A DNA stretch of 64,000 nt from NCBI GenBank assembly GCA_013141175.1, contig JABFRN010000001.1, forward strand, positions 2,934,001-2,998,000, given 5' to 3'. Origin of the DNA: Lysobacter sp. (GTDB lineage Bacteria; Pseudomonadota; Gammaproteobacteria; Xanthomonadales; Xanthomonadaceae). Below are positions 55,396 through 60,856 of the stretch, one piece after another. The stretch's first letter is position 1. Every line of letters begins with the position of its first letter. The notes under the pieces were generated by a model. The model searched no databases, had not been told where the DNA came from, and saw nothing but the letters and a program-made list of their open reading frames with translations. Both the position numbers and the translations under genes were made by a program.

Positions 55396-55506
55396 CCCCG
55401 CCTTGGCGGGGTTTTCGCTTTTCAGGATATTGAGCCCCGCCTTGGCGGGGTTTTCGCTTTTCAGGATATTGAGCCCCGCCCCGGCGGGGTTTTCGCTTTT
55501 CCGGAT
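55396..55506 (+). terminator. Three tandem intrinsic terminators (39-bp repeat unit)
   Basis: CCCCGCCTTGGCGGGG followed by TTTTCGCTTTT recurs at 55396, 55435 and 55474 with a period of 39 bp; units 1 and 2 are identical and unit 3 has CCCCGG in the loop region. Each unit is a complete hairpin plus U-tract on the plus strand, ending the bTHX transcript. Confidence 0.9.
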
Positions 55507-55534
55507 CCTGCGAAGCATCCTGCGGAACCCGGGC

Positions 55535-56440
55535 TCAGCGCGCCGGGACGCGTTCCAGTTGGCCGTCGGCGTAATCGCGCGCGAACGGCAGGTCCTTGCG
55601 GTGAACATAGCCGATGAAGCAGTCGCAGACCGGATTCGGGCAAGGTTTCGGCCCGAGGCGTGCGGCGAAACTGCCGTCATGGAGATTCCCCAACGGCTCG
55701 GCCACGAAATGACAGCGGCGCACGTCGCCGTCGCCGTTCACCGACAGCACCGATTCGCCGGTCGCACAGGGCGCCCCCACGCTGGGCGGCGGCGCAAGGT
55801 TGTAGCCGAAGTGCGGATCGATGGCGGTGAGCCGCGCGGTATCGGCCCCATCGTAATAGTCCGCAGTGCGCTGATCGTAGGCGTTGAGCCACATCGGCAC
55901 GTCCACCGGCAGCATCGCGCGCAGGCGCTCGATCTCATCGAACGATTCGCGCAATGCGACCATGCCGACGCTGAAACGGATTCCACGGCGGCGCAGGTCC
56001 AGGCAGCGGTCGACGAAGGCGCGCAGCGATACCTGGCTCGGGTGGTACGTGCACCACAGCGCGAACGACCGCGTATCGACACGCTCCAGCCAGCGCGTGC
56101 CGATGCACAGATTGGTCTGTATCGCGACGCGTCGCACGTGCGGCAGATGGCTGAGCGCGATCATGGCTTCGCGATAGTGCTTGCGCACCAGCCCCTCGCC
56201 CCACGGCGTGAACAGGATCGACAGCGTCGTCGTCTGCCGCGCGGCCCAATCGACGAAGCGCGCGAGGTCCGCGGCGTCGCGCTGCAGCGTCGCGCGACTG
56301 TCGCGGGTTTTCGCGAACGGGCAATAGTCGCAATCGTAATTGCAGCTGCTCAATCTGCCGCGATACAGCAGCGACAGCGCCGAAGGCAGGCCGTCTTCGA
56401 GCGCGCTCAACTGCGATGCGGGAATCTGCGGTGCGTCCAT
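55535..56440 (-). CDS. Radical SAM protein, STM4011 family
   Basis: This 301-residue radical SAM enzyme has CNYDCDYC (C33, C37, C40) binding the SAM-cleaving 4Fe-4S cluster. A C-terminal cysteine-rich region (APCATGESV, RRCHFVAEP, KPCPNPVCDCF) could hold an auxiliary cluster, as in SPASM-like proteins. It is the last gene of the five-gene run, 3 bp after the second radical SAM gene. I recognise it from memory as the STM4011 family; the reaction and substrate are unknown. Modification of a peptide or protein partner is a reasonable guess. Confidence 0.85.
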   Translation of the reverse strand: MDAPQIPASQLSALEDGLPSALSLLYRGRLSSCNYDCDYCPFAKTRDSRATLQRDAADLARFVDWAARQTTTLSILFTPWGEGLVRKHYREAMIALSHLPHVRRVAIQTNLCIGTRWLERVDTRSFALWCTYHPSQVSLRAFVDRCLDLRRRGIRFSVGMVALRESFDEIERLRAMLPVDVPMWLNAYDQRTADYYDGADTARLTAIDPHFGYNLAPPPSVGAPCATGESVLSVNGDGDVRRCHFVAEPLGNLHDGSFAARLGPKPCPNPVCDCFIGYVHRKDLPFARDYADGQLERVPAR

Positions 56441-56443
56441 GCG

Positions 56444-57817
56444 TCAGCGCAGCTCGAATTCGGCCATGCGCGCGGCCACCGCATCGGAAATCAGCCAGGG
56501 ACCGATCGTGTCCGCACGCGCCATGCCGGCATCGGTCAGCGCCAGCAGCGCGCCTTCGCGACGCGCGAGCGACAGCGCCTCCAGCGCCTGCAACTGCGGT
56601 AGGTCCTGGAAACAATCGCTGCCGAAGCGTGCGCGATACGCCTCCGCATCGAGTCCCGGACGCACCAGCAGCGATTGGATGACGTAACGCCGCTGCTGTT
56701 CGCCCGCGTCCAATGCGATGCCGTAGTCGATGCTTGCGAAATCGTCCTGCGACAGCGACAGGTAGTGATCGAGAATCTCGGCGACGCTGCGCCGCGAAAC
56801 GCCGAATTCGCTGGAGTAGTGCAGCGCGTGCGTGTACGAGCGCGCGCCGCAGCCGATGCCGACCATGCCGTCGTCCTGACAACAGTAGGCCGGGCCTATA
56901 TCGCTGGCGGGCGCGTGCGGCGCGCGGAACATGCGCATCGAGACTTGCCGATAACCGGCAGCGAGCAGCGCGTCGCGGCCGGCGCGATACAGGGTCATGC
57001 GGTCGTCGACCGGTTCGGGACGCAGTGCGAAACGGGTTTTGCCGTCGCGGCCTTCGATCCTGTCCCCGATTCTGCTCAAACCAGTCAGCGGCCGGACGTA
57101 CAGTGGATAGAGATAGAGCTCTTCCGGCGCGAACGCCAGCGCACTGTCGATCGATGCCAGGAAACTGGCTTCGGTCTGTCCCTGGATGCCGTAGATCAAA
57201 TCGAGATTGAGGGTAGGAAAGTCGTGCGCACGGATCGCGGCGATCGCGCGCTCCACCTCGTCGCGCTGCTGGGGGCGGACCAGCGTGCGTACTTCGGCAT
57301 CGCTGAAACTCTGGATGCCCATGCTGATGCGGTCGATGCCCGCGCTGCGGCAGATCGCCATTTTTTCGGTGTCGACGGTTTCCGGCGACACTTCCATGCC
57401 CGCCGGAATCGTATGAAGATCGATCGTGCAATGGCGCCGCACGCTGTCGAACAATCGCTGCAGTTGATCGGCGGACAAATAACTCGGCGTGCCGCCGCCC
57501 AGCGCGAAGCGGACGAAGCGATGCGTGCCGAGCGCGTCGGCGGTGACTGCGAGTTGGCGATCAAGTTGATCGAGATAGCGTGCGACCGTATCGGCCGATG
57601 GTCGCGCCAGCGTGAACAGATTGCAGAAGCCGCAGCGATACGAGCAGAACGGAACGTGCAGATACAGGAACAGCGCATTGCGGTCTTCGTTCGCCCATGT
57701 GTCCCGCAACGGTTGCGGTTCGGTCAACGCCCGGTACGCGGTCTTGTGCGGATAGGAATACGAATACGCCTGGTACGGCGGCAATTCGAGCAGGGATTCG
57801 AGCGCGGCAGCGTTCAC
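56444..57817 (-). CDS. Radical SAM protein, STM4012 family (HemN-like)
   Basis: This 457-residue protein has the HemN-type opening LYLHVPFCSYRCGFCNLF (C58, C62, C65). It also has the glycine-rich SAM-binding FALGGGTPSYL, and a GIQSFSDAEV segment as in coproporphyrinogen dehydrogenase-like enzymes. The C-terminal region has a HemN_C-like helical part. A GTG start at 57817 overlaps the stop of the preceding hydrolase gene (GTGA), so translation is coupled. Despite HemN likeness, the gene neighbourhood argues for a dedicated role rather than heme synthesis. Confidence 0.85.
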   Translation of the reverse strand: MNAAALESLLELPPYQAYSYSYPHKTAYRALTEPQPLRDTWANEDRNALFLYLHVPFCSYRCGFCNLFTLARPSADTVARYLDQLDRQLAVTADALGTHRFVRFALGGGTPSYLSADQLQRLFDSVRRHCTIDLHTIPAGMEVSPETVDTEKMAICRSAGIDRISMGIQSFSDAEVRTLVRPQQRDEVERAIAAIRAHDFPTLNLDLIYGIQGQTEASFLASIDSALAFAPEELYLYPLYVRPLTGLSRIGDRIEGRDGKTRFALRPEPVDDRMTLYRAGRDALLAAGYRQVSMRMFRAPHAPASDIGPAYCCQDDGMVGIGCGARSYTHALHYSSEFGVSRRSVAEILDHYLSLSQDDFASIDYGIALDAGEQQRRYVIQSLLVRPGLDAEAYRARFGSDCFQDLPQLQALEALSLARREGALLALTDAGMARADTIGPWLISDAVAARMAEFELR

Positions 57818-58647
57818 GGCGTCAGCAGGAAATGAGCATAGGGCACGTGCATCACGACATCGTGCGCGATGCGGTGCCCATGATAACCGTCCTCGCCGTA
57901 GGCGGTGCCGTGATCCGAGCAGACGATGACGAAGGTCGGCGCGCGCCGTCGCGATGTGTCGAACAGCTTTGCCAAAACGCCATCCACATGGACCAGCGCA
58001 GCCATGTGGGTCTCGATGTCGTCGCGTTCCGCGCCCGGAAGATAGTGCCGGTTCGGTTGATGCAGCGCGGAGACATTGATGAAGGTGAAGCACCGCTGTC
58101 CGTGCAGATCGTCTGACTGCAGGCGTTCGCAGGCCAGCGTGACCTGCGCTGCCGTCGAGTCGATCGCGGTCACGCCGAATTCCGGTCGCCAGTGGGCTTC
58201 GTCGAACATCGACGGCAGTGCGCGGCCCAAGGGATTGGCGAGATTGAAGAAACCGACGCCGCCGATGCAGATCGTTCGGTAACCCTGTGCTGCCAAGCCA
58301 TGGACGATGTCGGCATGATCCGGAAACACGAGGGTATTCGCATCGATGGTTTCGCTGCCGGCGAAGGCCAGCGCGAACAGGCGCGGATGCGGCCCGGGTC
58401 GCGCGGGTGTGGGCAGGAACCCCGCGAAAAACGCCTGATGCGCCGCGTAGGTGAAGCTGGCCGGCGTGTGCCGGCGTTCCCAGCCGCCGGCGGGCAGATG
58501 CGCGGCCAGCGCCGGCAGCCGGCCCTGCGCGAAGCAGGCCTGCGCGGCGTCGTAGCGCAGCGTGTCGAGGGTGATGAACAGGATGTCGTGCGTGCCGACG
58601 ATGGCGTGCATGTCGATGGCAGGTGGTGCGGCAGGATCGTGGGTCAT
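57814..58647 (-). CDS. Alkaline-phosphatase-superfamily hydrolase, STM4013/SEN3800 family
   Basis: This 277-residue protein has the sulfatase/phosphatase-like fold. ILFITLDTLRYDAA gives the first metal aspartate, and HTPASFTYAAHQAFFAG is a likely nucleophile region. FVIVCSDHGTAYGEDGYHGH holds the second metal set. Such enzymes hydrolyse or transfer phosphate or sulfate esters. There is no signal peptide, so it acts in the cytosol, unlike most sulfatases. It overlaps both neighbours by 4 bp (ATGA with the ATP-grasp gene, GTGA with the radical SAM gene). Confidence 0.83.
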   Translation of the reverse strand: MTHDPAAPPAIDMHAIVGTHDILFITLDTLRYDAAQACFAQGRLPALAAHLPAGGWERRHTPASFTYAAHQAFFAGFLPTPARPGPHPRLFALAFAGSETIDANTLVFPDHADIVHGLAAQGYRTICIGGVGFFNLANPLGRALPSMFDEAHWRPEFGVTAIDSTAAQVTLACERLQSDDLHGQRCFTFINVSALHQPNRHYLPGAERDDIETHMAALVHVDGVLAKLFDTSRRRAPTFVIVCSDHGTAYGEDGYHGHRIAHDVVMHVPYAHFLLTP

Positions 58648-59759
58648 GCCGCGTTCCTGTCCTGTTCGTCATGGCCTGCGACCCAGGCCGCTTGATCGTC
58701 GTAGGCATCGGCGCCGTGCCAGCGCAGACCCGGCAACAGGTCACCGAAGGCATTCGCCTCCAGCACGTGGCAGGCTTCGCGACCGGGAATCAGGTCGAAG
58801 CCGATCATCGCGCTCTTCGCGAACACGGCCGCTGCTTTCCTGACGCGGTCTTCGATGACGCTCGTCTCCGTTGCGTCGAGCAGCGCCTGCGGATCGCCAC
58901 GTCGGTTGCCGAGGTGAAGATTGGTCATCGGCCGGTCGGCGATGCGCGCAACCCGCTGCCGAGGCTCACCCTCGAAAGCGACCACGCGCAGATCGAAATG
59001 ATGGCCGGCGTGTCCGGGTGCGCGTGGTTTCGCGATCCAGCGTTCGACGTAAGCACCCTGTATCGCCAGCGCATCGATCAATGCTGCGATGCTTCGACGG
59101 TCGGTATAGCGCTTCGGCGCAAGGGTGTTGAACAGATGCGGGTCCTTCGCGCCTTCGATGATCGACGTGCTCGCGTAGGCGACTTCACGACCGTCGCGAT
59201 GATGCCGATACGCGAGTACGCCCGCTGCGGACGAACCGTAGCGGGCCTTGACGAAGATGCGATCGCAATCGTGCTGTTCGGACAATCGACGCAGGGCATC
59301 GTAGCCATCGATGAGGCCGAGCAGCGGCGGCGCGACGACGCCAGCGGCAATCAAATCCTGCTGGCAGCGCCATTTGTCGCACATGCGCAGGATATCCCCG
59401 GGCGGATTCAGCCAGCGCGCGTCGCCTGCAACCCGATGCAGTGTCTGCAACAGCCCGGCGAAGCCGGCGTACCACAGGTGCTGGTTGGCGAGCTCGGCAT
59501 GCGCAAGCGGTTTGGGTGGCGGACCTTGTTCGCCGTTGCGGATCCAGCCGCGATGCAACAATGCATCGTGCAGCGCGGCGGATTCGCCGGGCGAATCGAG
59601 TTTGACGACGACGCTGCCAGAAACCGCATCCGCAAAGCGCTGCGGCTCGTCGAGCAGCGTCGTGTAATCCACGATGCGCGCCGGTGCCAGGCCGCGTCGT
59701 TTCAGCGCCGCCTGCAGTAGATGCGTGCGGCGATGGTCCGGTTGTCCGACCAGGACCAT
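58644..59759 (-). CDS. ATP-grasp-like protein, STM4014 family
   Basis: The 371-residue product shows a RimK-like ATP-grasp organisation. Segments include DKWRCQQDLIAAGVVAPPLL, FVKARYGSSAAGV (nucleotide lysine and glycine loop), FDLRVVAFEGEP, and the metal-site ending IGFDLIPGREACHVLEANAFG. ATP-grasp enzymes ligate carboxylates to amines or thiols through an acyl-phosphate. ATG at 59759 was taken; a GTG at 59774 is possible. Its stop overlaps the start of the hydrolase gene. It is the only ligase-type activity in the cassette. Confidence 0.8.
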   Translation of the reverse strand: MVLVGQPDHRRTHLLQAALKRRGLAPARIVDYTTLLDEPQRFADAVSGSVVVKLDSPGESAALHDALLHRGWIRNGEQGPPPKPLAHAELANQHLWYAGFAGLLQTLHRVAGDARWLNPPGDILRMCDKWRCQQDLIAAGVVAPPLLGLIDGYDALRRLSEQHDCDRIFVKARYGSSAAGVLAYRHHRDGREVAYASTSIIEGAKDPHLFNTLAPKRYTDRRSIAALIDALAIQGAYVERWIAKPRAPGHAGHHFDLRVVAFEGEPRQRVARIADRPMTNLHLGNRRGDPQALLDATETSVIEDRVRKAAAVFAKSAMIGFDLIPGREACHVLEANAFGDLLPGLRWHGADAYDDQAAWVAGHDEQDRNAA

Positions 59760-59787
59760 CGAGGCCTGCGTCACGGCGACTGCCGGC

Positions 59788-60717
59788 TTACTCGGACACC
59801 GCGACATAGCGGTCGCCGTCGCTTTCTTCGGCATCCTGGGGATCGTCCAGCACGACCTTGCAGGGCAGTGCGCGCAGTTTGGCCTGCCAGGCTTCGCCGA
59901 CGTAATGGTGACTGAGGTCGAGCGTTCCCAGTCCCGCGATATGCGGACTTTCGCAGAGCGCCTGCGCGCCCTCGTCGCCGATGACGCCCATCGAAAGGTC
60001 CAGCGTTTTCAGTTTGCCAAGCCACGGTTGCGTGGCCAGATGCGCAGCCAGTGCATCGCTGAGCTGCGAGTTGCGCAGGCCCAGATAGTCCAGTCGCGAG
60101 GCATCGATGGCATCGAGGAGGCGTGCATAGGTGCCGACATCGCCATCGAAGCCATAGCCATCGTCGCCGAGCCACAGTTCCAACCGGCGCAGCGCCGGCA
60201 GCTTCGATCCGGCGATCGCATTCGCGATATCGCTGGGCAAGCCGCCGCATTCGATCGCCAGTTCATCGAGTTGTGCGTGCTCGAACGCTTCCAGCTTCAA
60301 TTGGCTGCTGCCGCGGATCCGCAGCGAGCGCAACTGCGGAAAGGCGGCCAGCAGCGGGTTGTAACCGACCTGGATGATCCACGAAACCTCGCAGTCTTCG
60401 TAGGTCATGTCGCCGATGAACAGGGCCTGCAGCGCAGGCAGTTCCGCGCGGCGTTCGATCAGGCCATCGAGATAGCCCTGCGGACCTTCGTCGTGCGCTT
60501 CGCTCCATGCGCCGATGATCAGCGCGTCGAGCGCTGCCGTGTCGACCTGTCCGAGGAAGCTGTCGAGCAGGTCGCGCTGGCTCTCGGCCGAGTCGTAATC
60601 CTGCATCAGCCGATAGATGTTGGTGCGGACGGCAGCCGGATCGGCGATGGTGTCGCCCATCCGGAATTCGACGACGGGCTTGTCGAGATAGCGGTCCTTG
60701 GTTTCGTTGATCGTCAT
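59788..60717 (-). CDS. Leucine-rich-repeat protein, STM4015 family
   Basis: The first gene of the cassette encodes 309 residues with no signal peptide. Residues 90-280 contain leucine-rich repeats (LPALQALFIGDM, FPQLRSLRIRG, AQLDELAIECGGLP, LPALRRLELWLGDDG, RLDYLGLRNSQLSD, KLKTLDLSMGVIGDEG). The N-terminal part includes VSWIIQVGYNPLLAAFP. An acidic C-terminal tail ends SDGDRYVAVSE. LRR domains usually bind proteins, so it may be a scaffold, immunity-type partner or substrate of the four enzymes. The start at 60717 gives MTINETKDRYLDKPVVEF. Confidence 0.83.
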   Translation of the reverse strand: MTINETKDRYLDKPVVEFRMGDTIADPAAVRTNIYRLMQDYDSAESQRDLLDSFLGQVDTAALDALIIGAWSEAHDEGPQGYLDGLIERRAELPALQALFIGDMTYEDCEVSWIIQVGYNPLLAAFPQLRSLRIRGSSQLKLEAFEHAQLDELAIECGGLPSDIANAIAGSKLPALRRLELWLGDDGYGFDGDVGTYARLLDAIDASRLDYLGLRNSQLSDALAAHLATQPWLGKLKTLDLSMGVIGDEGAQALCESPHIAGLGTLDLSHHYVGEAWQAKLRALPCKVVLDDPQDAEESDGDRYVAVSE

Positions 60718-60764: not shown

Positions 60765-60856
60765 TTCGTCATCCCCGCGTATGCGGGGATCCAGCGTCTT
60801 TGCTTCGTCGCAGAGGCCTGAAGTCACTGGATCCCCGCGTGCGCGGGGATGACGAA
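60765..60856. repeat. CGTCATCCCCGCG-type inverted repeat
   Basis: TTCGTCATCCCCGCG (60765-60779) and its exact complement (60842-60856) bound a 92-bp element. Each end also carries a GATCC-containing local hairpin. It lies upstream of the STM4015-type gene in its promoter region. Confidence 0.85.

Follow-up and report, generated by a model that had tools for sequence, protein, structure and literature searches.

The STM4011–STM4015 gene cassette in a Lysobacter genome and a conserved C-terminal tail on its leucine-rich repeat protein

Layout and distribution of the five-gene cassette

The stretch of Lysobacter sp. DNA analysed here (64,000 nucleotides, hereafter the window, from a genome consisting of a single contig of 4.16 Mb) contains a cassette of five genes at positions 55535–60717, all on the minus strand, for a leucine-rich repeat (LRR) protein, a predicted ATP-grasp ligase, a hydrolase of the alkaline phosphatase superfamily and two radical S-adenosylmethionine (SAM) enzymes. 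All five proteins passed the curated cut-offs of the NCBIfam families STM4011 to STM4015, and the gene order is the same as in the Salmonella record. The descriptions of these families give no function and mention no C-terminal tail. The conserved tail of STM4015 reported below is a new finding of this analysis. The cassette consists of the following features:

59788–60717, minus strand: LRR protein of the STM4015 family, 309 amino acids (NF038076, 308.6 bits, cut-off 275)
59812–59853, minus strand: acidic, poorly conserved linker (about residues 289–302) before the tail
59791–59811, minus strand: codons of the conserved C-terminal tail RYVAVSE (R303–E309), ending exactly at the stop codon
58644–59759, minus strand: predicted ATP-grasp carboxylate-amine ligase of the STM4014 family (NF038074, 323.6 bits, cut-off 175)
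57814–58647, minus strand: alkaline-phosphatase-superfamily hydrolase of the STM4013/SEN3800 family (NF038075, 391.7 bits, cut-off 250)
56444–57817, minus strand: HemN-like radical SAM enzyme of the STM4012 family (NF006067, 582.1 bits, cut-off 380)
55535–56440, minus strand: radical SAM enzyme of the STM4011 family with SPASM-like auxiliary cysteines (NF038073, 373.6 bits, cut-off 200)

A sequence-only reading of the window had described five tightly packed minus-strand genes with 4-bp overlaps or gaps of 3–28 bp, and both this layout and its coordinates were borne out. STM4014 starts with ATG after a gap of 28 bp downstream of STM4015 (an alternative GTG at 59774 is possible) and overlaps STM4013 by 4 bp. 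STM4012 starts with GTG, also overlaps STM4013 by 4 bp and is separated from STM4011 by 3 bp.

Tabulation with the family hidden Markov models revealed members of all five families above cut-off in an identical set of 14 of the 149 genomes of the window's family and in no others, corresponding to 4 of the 54 genera, each of the 14 positive genomes holding all five. None of the 14 control genomes exceeded any of the five cut-offs. For STM4013, 24 further, weaker matches (E ≤ 1e-3) in the window's family lay below the cut-off. The closest named STM4013 proteins among the matches listed stem from Lysobacteraceae (81–82% identity). Loci from other organisms were found through STM4013 and represent the best 80 of 569 listed, a non-random sample biased to near relatives; within the fetched stretches of up to 8 kb on each side, 64 of these 80 loci contain all five genes. 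The other 16 loci are incomplete: STM4015 is missing from the stretch in 13 of them and STM4014 in 12. Whole-genome searches, which covered these two families, detected an STM4015 relative in 12 of the 13 cases, one of them weak (E 4e-11), and STM4014 elsewhere in the genome in 10 of the 12. Many of the incomplete loci belong to Myxococcota in which the set is split into two clusters, and some are cut by contig ends. In a single metagenome-assembled genome (G302) STM4013 is present while STM4014 and STM4015 are both absent. In a genome from another family of the same class STM4014 adjoins STM4011, and the LRR genes fall below the cut-off.

The same gene order recurs in five of seven plasmid regions around STM4013 relatives (Methylobacterium, Salmonella, Deinococcus, Paenibacillus and Streptomyces fungicidicus), and the linkage of the five genes is therefore more than chance. 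The Deinococcus and S. fungicidicus cassettes contain two STM4015 genes each. The notion of a coherent set, as opposed to homologues lying mostly apart from each other, thus withstood the tabulation, both in the 14 genomes of the family and in the 64 complete distant loci. All in all, the complete set occurs in at least ten phyla, and a partial one in Bacteroides. In the two remaining plasmid regions the STM4013 relative stands alone: on Agrobacterium pTi-SAKURA (L035, 8001–8861; 26% identity) it resides near GTP cyclohydrolase II-like and HPr-kinase-like genes, and on a Streptomyces albidoflavus plasmid (L041, 9765–11928) near a NUDIX gene and a gene annotated as lasso-peptide B2. The short phage records OR845521 and OR850900 also contain STM4013-like sequence, perhaps host DNA.

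The C-terminal tail of STM4015 and the number of LRR genes

When LRR proteins from four phyla, and then 103 of them, were placed side by side, a common ending R-Y-x-A-V-[GSA]-E directly before the stop codon became apparent. The architecture comprises an LRR body, a variable acidic linker and a terminal R-[YF]-x-x-[VIL]-x-E-COOH. For quantification we used an alignment (A4) of 102 sequences, i.e., the 103 LRR open reading frames (ORFs) minus two truncated ones (L091 and L114 16162–16794, both ending in Glu) plus that of the window. The terminal Glu is present in 99 of the 102 members and the full motif R[YF]xx[VIL]xE in 92, with Arg at position −7 in 98, Tyr at −6 in 92 (Phe in 5) and Val at −3 in 86. 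Against an otherwise divergent family (mean column identity 26%) and a linker of low rank, the tail stands out: by information content, R303 and E309 hold ranks 10 and 11 of 309 positions, while linker positions 289–302 hold ranks 139–295. The 13 residues before the tail consist on average of 42% Asp/Glu and 6% Lys/Arg, and the distance from V288 to the tail varies between 8 and 24 residues (median 16). In 1835 pairs with less than 35% body identity, the bodies have a mean identity of 0.30; the corresponding means are 0.55 for the final seven residues and 0.10 for the linker.

Each of the ten named phyla sampled has the tail (phylum labels here and in the tree below were set by hand from record titles). 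Proteins ending in Glu account for 28/28 in Pseudomonadota, 27/27 in Actinomycetota, 21/23 in Cyanobacteriota, 13/14 in Myxococcota, 2/2 each in Deinococcota, Chloroflexota and Planctomycetota, and 1/1 each in Acidobacteriota, Armatimonadota, Bacillota and one unclassified record. With the Bacteroides finegoldii plasmid, whose LRR protein has the related tail ...WYYPMITE, the number of phyla rises to eleven. Among LRR genes at other places in the genomes, as in the split clusters, 36 of 38 closed rows end in Glu; these rows overlap each other and alignment A4, and two come from the above-mentioned genome of another family with LRR genes below the cut-off. A similar tail was found in none of 13091 closed ORFs of at least 50 codons (many of them spurious) other than LRR genes in 87 loci. 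The DNA pattern of the tail occurs at three places in the window's genome, one of them STM4015 and the other two counted regardless of reading frame. That the terminal Glu is an artefact of overlapping start and stop codons was ruled out, because both Glu codons are used (GAG in 69 and GAA in 31 of 103 genes) and Glu is found without overlap with the STM4014 start, namely in 74 of 77 non-overlapping genes as compared with 26 of 26 overlapping ones.

LRR genes are also the multiplied component of the cassette. Between two and four of them are present in 19 of the 80 loci, while no enzyme gene has a second copy of at least 100 bits, the line applied for copy counts (weak second STM4013 and STM4014 pieces in L067, with 60 and 71 bits, lie below it). 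In a FastTree tree calculated without the tail, the duplications fall separately within Cyanobacteriota, Actinomycetota, Planctomycetota, Deinococcota (here in a plasmid locus) and two groups of Myxococcota. Most duplicated or unlinked LRR genes have retained the tail. Several substrate copies next to single enzymes are the usual look of precursor genes.

The AlphaFold2 model of STM4015, computed from 80 of the 102 aligned sequences, has a mean predicted local distance difference test score (pLDDT) of 94.6. Its best Foldseek match is PDB 2ra8 (template modelling (TM) score 0.80, 30% identity), the solved structure of a relative from Bacteroides fragilis (Q64V53; profile match E 3.3e-75) that is named uncharacterised; the profile match stops short of the last residues of this chain, and the tail is outside the comparison. 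Library searches with STM4015 returned LRR models, one weak DUF3220 match and otherwise STM4015 only.

The four enzymes

For STM4014 the best PDB profile matches are LysX (E 8.8e-5) and RimK (E 1.3e-4). The AlphaFold2 model (pLDDT 93.6) has as its top Foldseek matches PsnB (3.1e-12), ArgX with LysW (5.8e-12) and RimK with RpsF (6.1e-11), and LysX is also among them. These closest ligases act on Glu or Asp carboxylates of proteins or peptides. Despite the shared fold group, no LysX model of NCBIfam matched STM4014 at E ≤ 0.1, and the RimK-related ligase model (12.3 bits vs a cut-off of 314.2) and Pfam RimK (13.1 vs 21) were far from and below their cut-offs, respectively. Alignment with LysX shows agreement at the D-x-R, R and T-N positions. 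D330, E342, N344, R280, T287 and N288 are invariant in alignment A8, and only E342 is reduced to nearly invariant in alignment A3 (the window plus 73 of 75 STM4014 ORFs); both alignments contain the window's ligase with eight extra N-terminal residues (from 59783, no start codon). Because of this invariance, STM4014 fits an active ATP-grasp enzyme, with D330, E342 and N344 being what we take to be the usual metal ligands. The median isoelectric point is 8.7 for the ligase and 4.45 for the LRR protein.

Since the top structural match is a graspetide ligase and the linker is acidic, we considered an ATP-grasp reaction that introduces an ester or amide cross-link within the tail or linker. A short precursor with leader and core, as in PsnB systems, is not part of the cassette, and the 102-member alignment contains no conserved Ser, Thr or Lys as a partner within the last 20 residues. 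A cross-link of this kind was rejected for lack of such an acceptor and appears very unlikely.

STM4013 aligns by its profile with arylsulfatases and nucleotide phosphodiesterases (NPP). T66, D28, H70, H196, D222, D245, H246 and H258 are each invariant in all 73 aligned proteins (the window plus 72 of 86 ORFs, leaving out 12 near-duplicates and the stand-alone relatives L035 and L041). Thr66 aligns at what is presumably the nucleophile site of the phosphodiesterases, and the formylglycine motif of sulfatases, C/S-x-P/A-x-R, was found near the nucleophile in none of the 73. Owing to this combination, STM4013 leans towards the phosphatase/phosphodiesterase type rather than the sulfatase type, and the earlier label "sulfatase/phosphatase-like" should be weighted towards its second half. 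The pairing of a radical SAM enzyme with a sulfatase is a classical system, and STM4011 weakly matches a sulfatase maturase model (E 0.023), which would suggest that STM4011 installs formylglycine in STM4013. With Thr at position 66 in 73/73 proteins and the motif missing throughout, this pairing was rejected and is virtually excluded.

STM4012 matches HemN (1olt, E 3.1e-57) and the radical SAM methyltransferase NocN (9p2u, E 1.5e-36). It reaches none of the equivalog cut-offs for HemN (144.7 bits vs 324.95), HemW (145.1 vs 205.4) and HutW/ChuW (148.5 vs 400). The HemN and HutW/ChuW scores and the 1olt match are what a role in a haem or porphyrin pathway could rest upon. However, the scores stay far below the cut-offs and no haem gene lies inside the five annotated cassettes, the Salmonella hemN being about 7 kb away, and such a role is highly improbable. 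In STM4011, the triad C33/C37/C40 and the additional cysteines C225, C243, C267, C272 and C274 are invariant in 78 sequences, so that the extra cysteines pointed out in the sequence-only reading number five. The C terminus of STM4011 matches SkfB (E 0.0016), and the SPASM model yields 15.5 bits vs a cut-off of 21.5. The alignments behind these analyses comprised the window plus 77 of 78 (A5) or 80 of 81 ORFs (A6).

A function in anti-phage defence was also rejected, as PADLOC gave no convincing support: three of the five window proteins had no match, and the partial matches of STM4012 to the candidate PDC-M51A (E 2.6e-7) and of STM4011 to pVip (E 0.0051) are read as cross-matches between radical SAM proteins.

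In Salmonella, STM4011 is followed directly by a HAD phosphatase gene that overlaps its end, and the Bacteroides finegoldii plasmid (L181, 7337–8902) encodes a fusion of STM4011 with a Cof-type HAD phosphatase; in this copy the STM4013–STM4012 stretch is broken. The arrangement hints at phosphate chemistry. In phmmer searches of the 80 loci with three HAD seeds no similar ORF was detected, the sole match besides Salmonella being the Deinococcus seed itself, 1.4 kb from the cassette. The HAD link was left out of the explanation for this reason.

A possible route to a modified LRR protein

We consider it probable that the four enzymes perform a ligation and further tailoring directed at the tail of STM4015, whatever the fate of the product. 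That the tail serves as a substrate is very likely, that ligation takes place at the terminal Glu is quite probable, and what we propose for the order and nature of the later steps is tentative. In this proposal, the acidic STM4015 would offer its tail, i.e., the acidic linker and R-Y-x-A-V-x-E-COOH, to the enzymes. Judging from its fold group and the near-invariant Glu, STM4014 would activate the terminal Glu carboxylate as an acyl phosphate and join it to an amine. A ligase activating a Glu carboxylate would fit because Glu and its C-terminal position are the most constant features of the tail, unlike Arg and Tyr, which vary in some members. After ligation, the HemN-like STM4012 and the SPASM-like STM4011 would modify either the appended group or the tail by radical chemistry, and a phosphate would be removed or transferred by STM4013. 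The sequence-only reading had envisaged biosynthesis or the modification of a peptide or protein, in which the LRR protein would be the target or a scaffold. The tail, the copy number and the ligase group strengthen the LRR protein as a target, while the part concerning a product stays conjectural.

Similar chemistry is known from several systems. LysW is a small carrier protein, unlike STM4015, a 309-residue protein with an LRR fold. The LysW/LysX/ArgX pathways resemble the cassette in the ligase fold group, in the C-terminal Glu and in the combination of an acidic partner with a basic ligase. According to PMC9303977, LysW-type carriers have a C-terminal Glu and dock electrostatically, and the pairing of an acidic LRR protein with a basic ligase would match the system as described there. 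Enzymes of the LysZ, LysY, LysJ or LysK type are not among the five proteins, and the cassette instead has radical SAM and phosphatase-type enzymes. RimK, which adds Glu to the C terminus of RpsF (PMC10092738), shares with STM4014 the prospect of extending a protein C terminus. It differs in that STM4014 comes with radical SAM enzymes and scores far below the cut-off of the RimK-related model. In pearlins, chemistry takes place at the C terminus of a genetically encoded protein and includes a radical SAM step (PMC9303977). Among the five cassette proteins there is no PEARL, the aminoacyl-tRNA-dependent ligase, which the ATP-grasp enzyme would replace, and no protease or transporter.

These parallels bear on the fate of the finished group. 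We lean towards its retention on the LRR protein, where it would act as a prosthetic group or effector, since no peptidase is encoded among the five genes and one tail is common to LRR bodies that diverge. Its release as a small product is nearly as likely. In the latter case STM4015 would correspond to an oversized LysW or pearlin scaffold: a building block would be loaded on its terminal Glu, modified while tethered and finally released by a peptidase from outside the cassette. This is one form of tail-directed modification and its probability is part of the one given above. Such carriers are known (PMC9303977), and the ligase group shared with LysX/ArgX, the C-terminal Glu and the acidic carrier with a basic ligase are all consistent with it. 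But a peptidase, kinase or reductase is lacking among the five proteins and a mere carrier would not need several divergent LRR bodies per locus. This specific form is possible yet rather unlikely.

Several observations weigh against tail-directed modification. Three of the 102 aligned LRR proteins, each from a multi-copy locus, and two of the 38 genome-wide rows do not end in Glu. The Arg of the tail is replaced by Tyr, Thr, Ala or Val in some members, Phe replaces Tyr in 5/102, and the Methylobacterium and Salmonella tails (IYRSIAVSE and IYMNAMYTE) are spaced differently. Within multi-copy loci (42 pairs), mean identity of the tail (0.63) is only modestly above that of the body (0.48), albeit much higher than that of the linker (0.14). 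On the part of the ligase, the sequence matches to LysX and RimK are weak and no single stretch passes (LysX per-stretch E 0.38 and 3), and the fold matches are moderate (TM about 0.55, root-mean-square deviation 5–7). The same Foldseek list, with 542 chains at E ≤ 0.001, includes D-Ala ligases, DcsG and biotin carboxylase, and fold alone therefore cannot fix the substrate. Finally, the last residues of STM4015 are modelled by AlphaFold2 with rather high confidence (block means 86 and 82), and the tail may thus pack on the LRR body instead of hanging free. LRR proteins commonly bind partners, and the moderately confident placement of the tail would also suit a purely docking or structural element, with the LRR protein as a regulator or scaffold and the enzymes producing a free small molecule. 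A docking strand, however, need not end at the C terminus, where 99/102 proteins have their Glu, and the duplicated and unlinked LRR genes would not have to retain it as they mostly do. We regard this explanation as improbable.

STM4015 might even be the first precursor or carrier of LRR type. It would be a folded protein for recognition, and the four enzymes would convert its C-terminal Glu into a new prosthetic group, so that one "warhead" made by one tail chemistry is aimed by diversified LRR bodies (up to four copies per locus). This idea is speculative and we would not bet on it. If tail-directed modification is right, LRR proteins would join a short list of genetically encoded scaffolds for building small groups. 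The five families were named by NCBI without a function and the two radical SAM enzymes of the cassette have no assigned substrate. The tail motif provides a handle for finding substrates, and the mass of the last seven residues would be a cheap and decisive readout. In the accessible open-access literature, which leaves most subscription papers outside the search, no study of the cassette was found, only bare mentions of locus tags in a positive-selection table and a sigma54 binding table. Since the search was confined to open access, the absence of any published function is not proven. Main-text term searches of the ATP-grasp surveys PMC4431377 and PMC8939145 found no mention of LRR proteins.

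The surroundings of the cassette in the window appear ordinary, with genes for ribosomal protein THX and HutI above their cut-offs and metal-type ABC transporter genes with model matches below cut-off. Between the convergent THX and STM4011 genes, positions 55396–55512 consist of three tandem 39-nt copies (100, 100 and 85% identity) of a GC-rich hairpin with a T-run that resemble a multiplied terminator. Just upstream of STM4015, at 60765–60856, lies a 36-nt inverted pair with CCCCGCG..CGCGGGG repeats (89% complementary) similar to repetitive extragenic palindromic (REP) elements. Clustering of neighbouring ORFs (first 45 clusters) was dominated by ten Janthinobacterium loci and yielded no useful pattern. 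In 23 of 87 loci from several phyla (e.g., L036, L038, L040, L074, L086, L094, L095, L105 and L116), a DUF6745 protein and a conserved protein of about 98–108 amino acids are encoded beside the cassette, and the C termini of the DUF6745 proteins resemble the tail, with Y-x-P-x-x-[EQ]-[TA].

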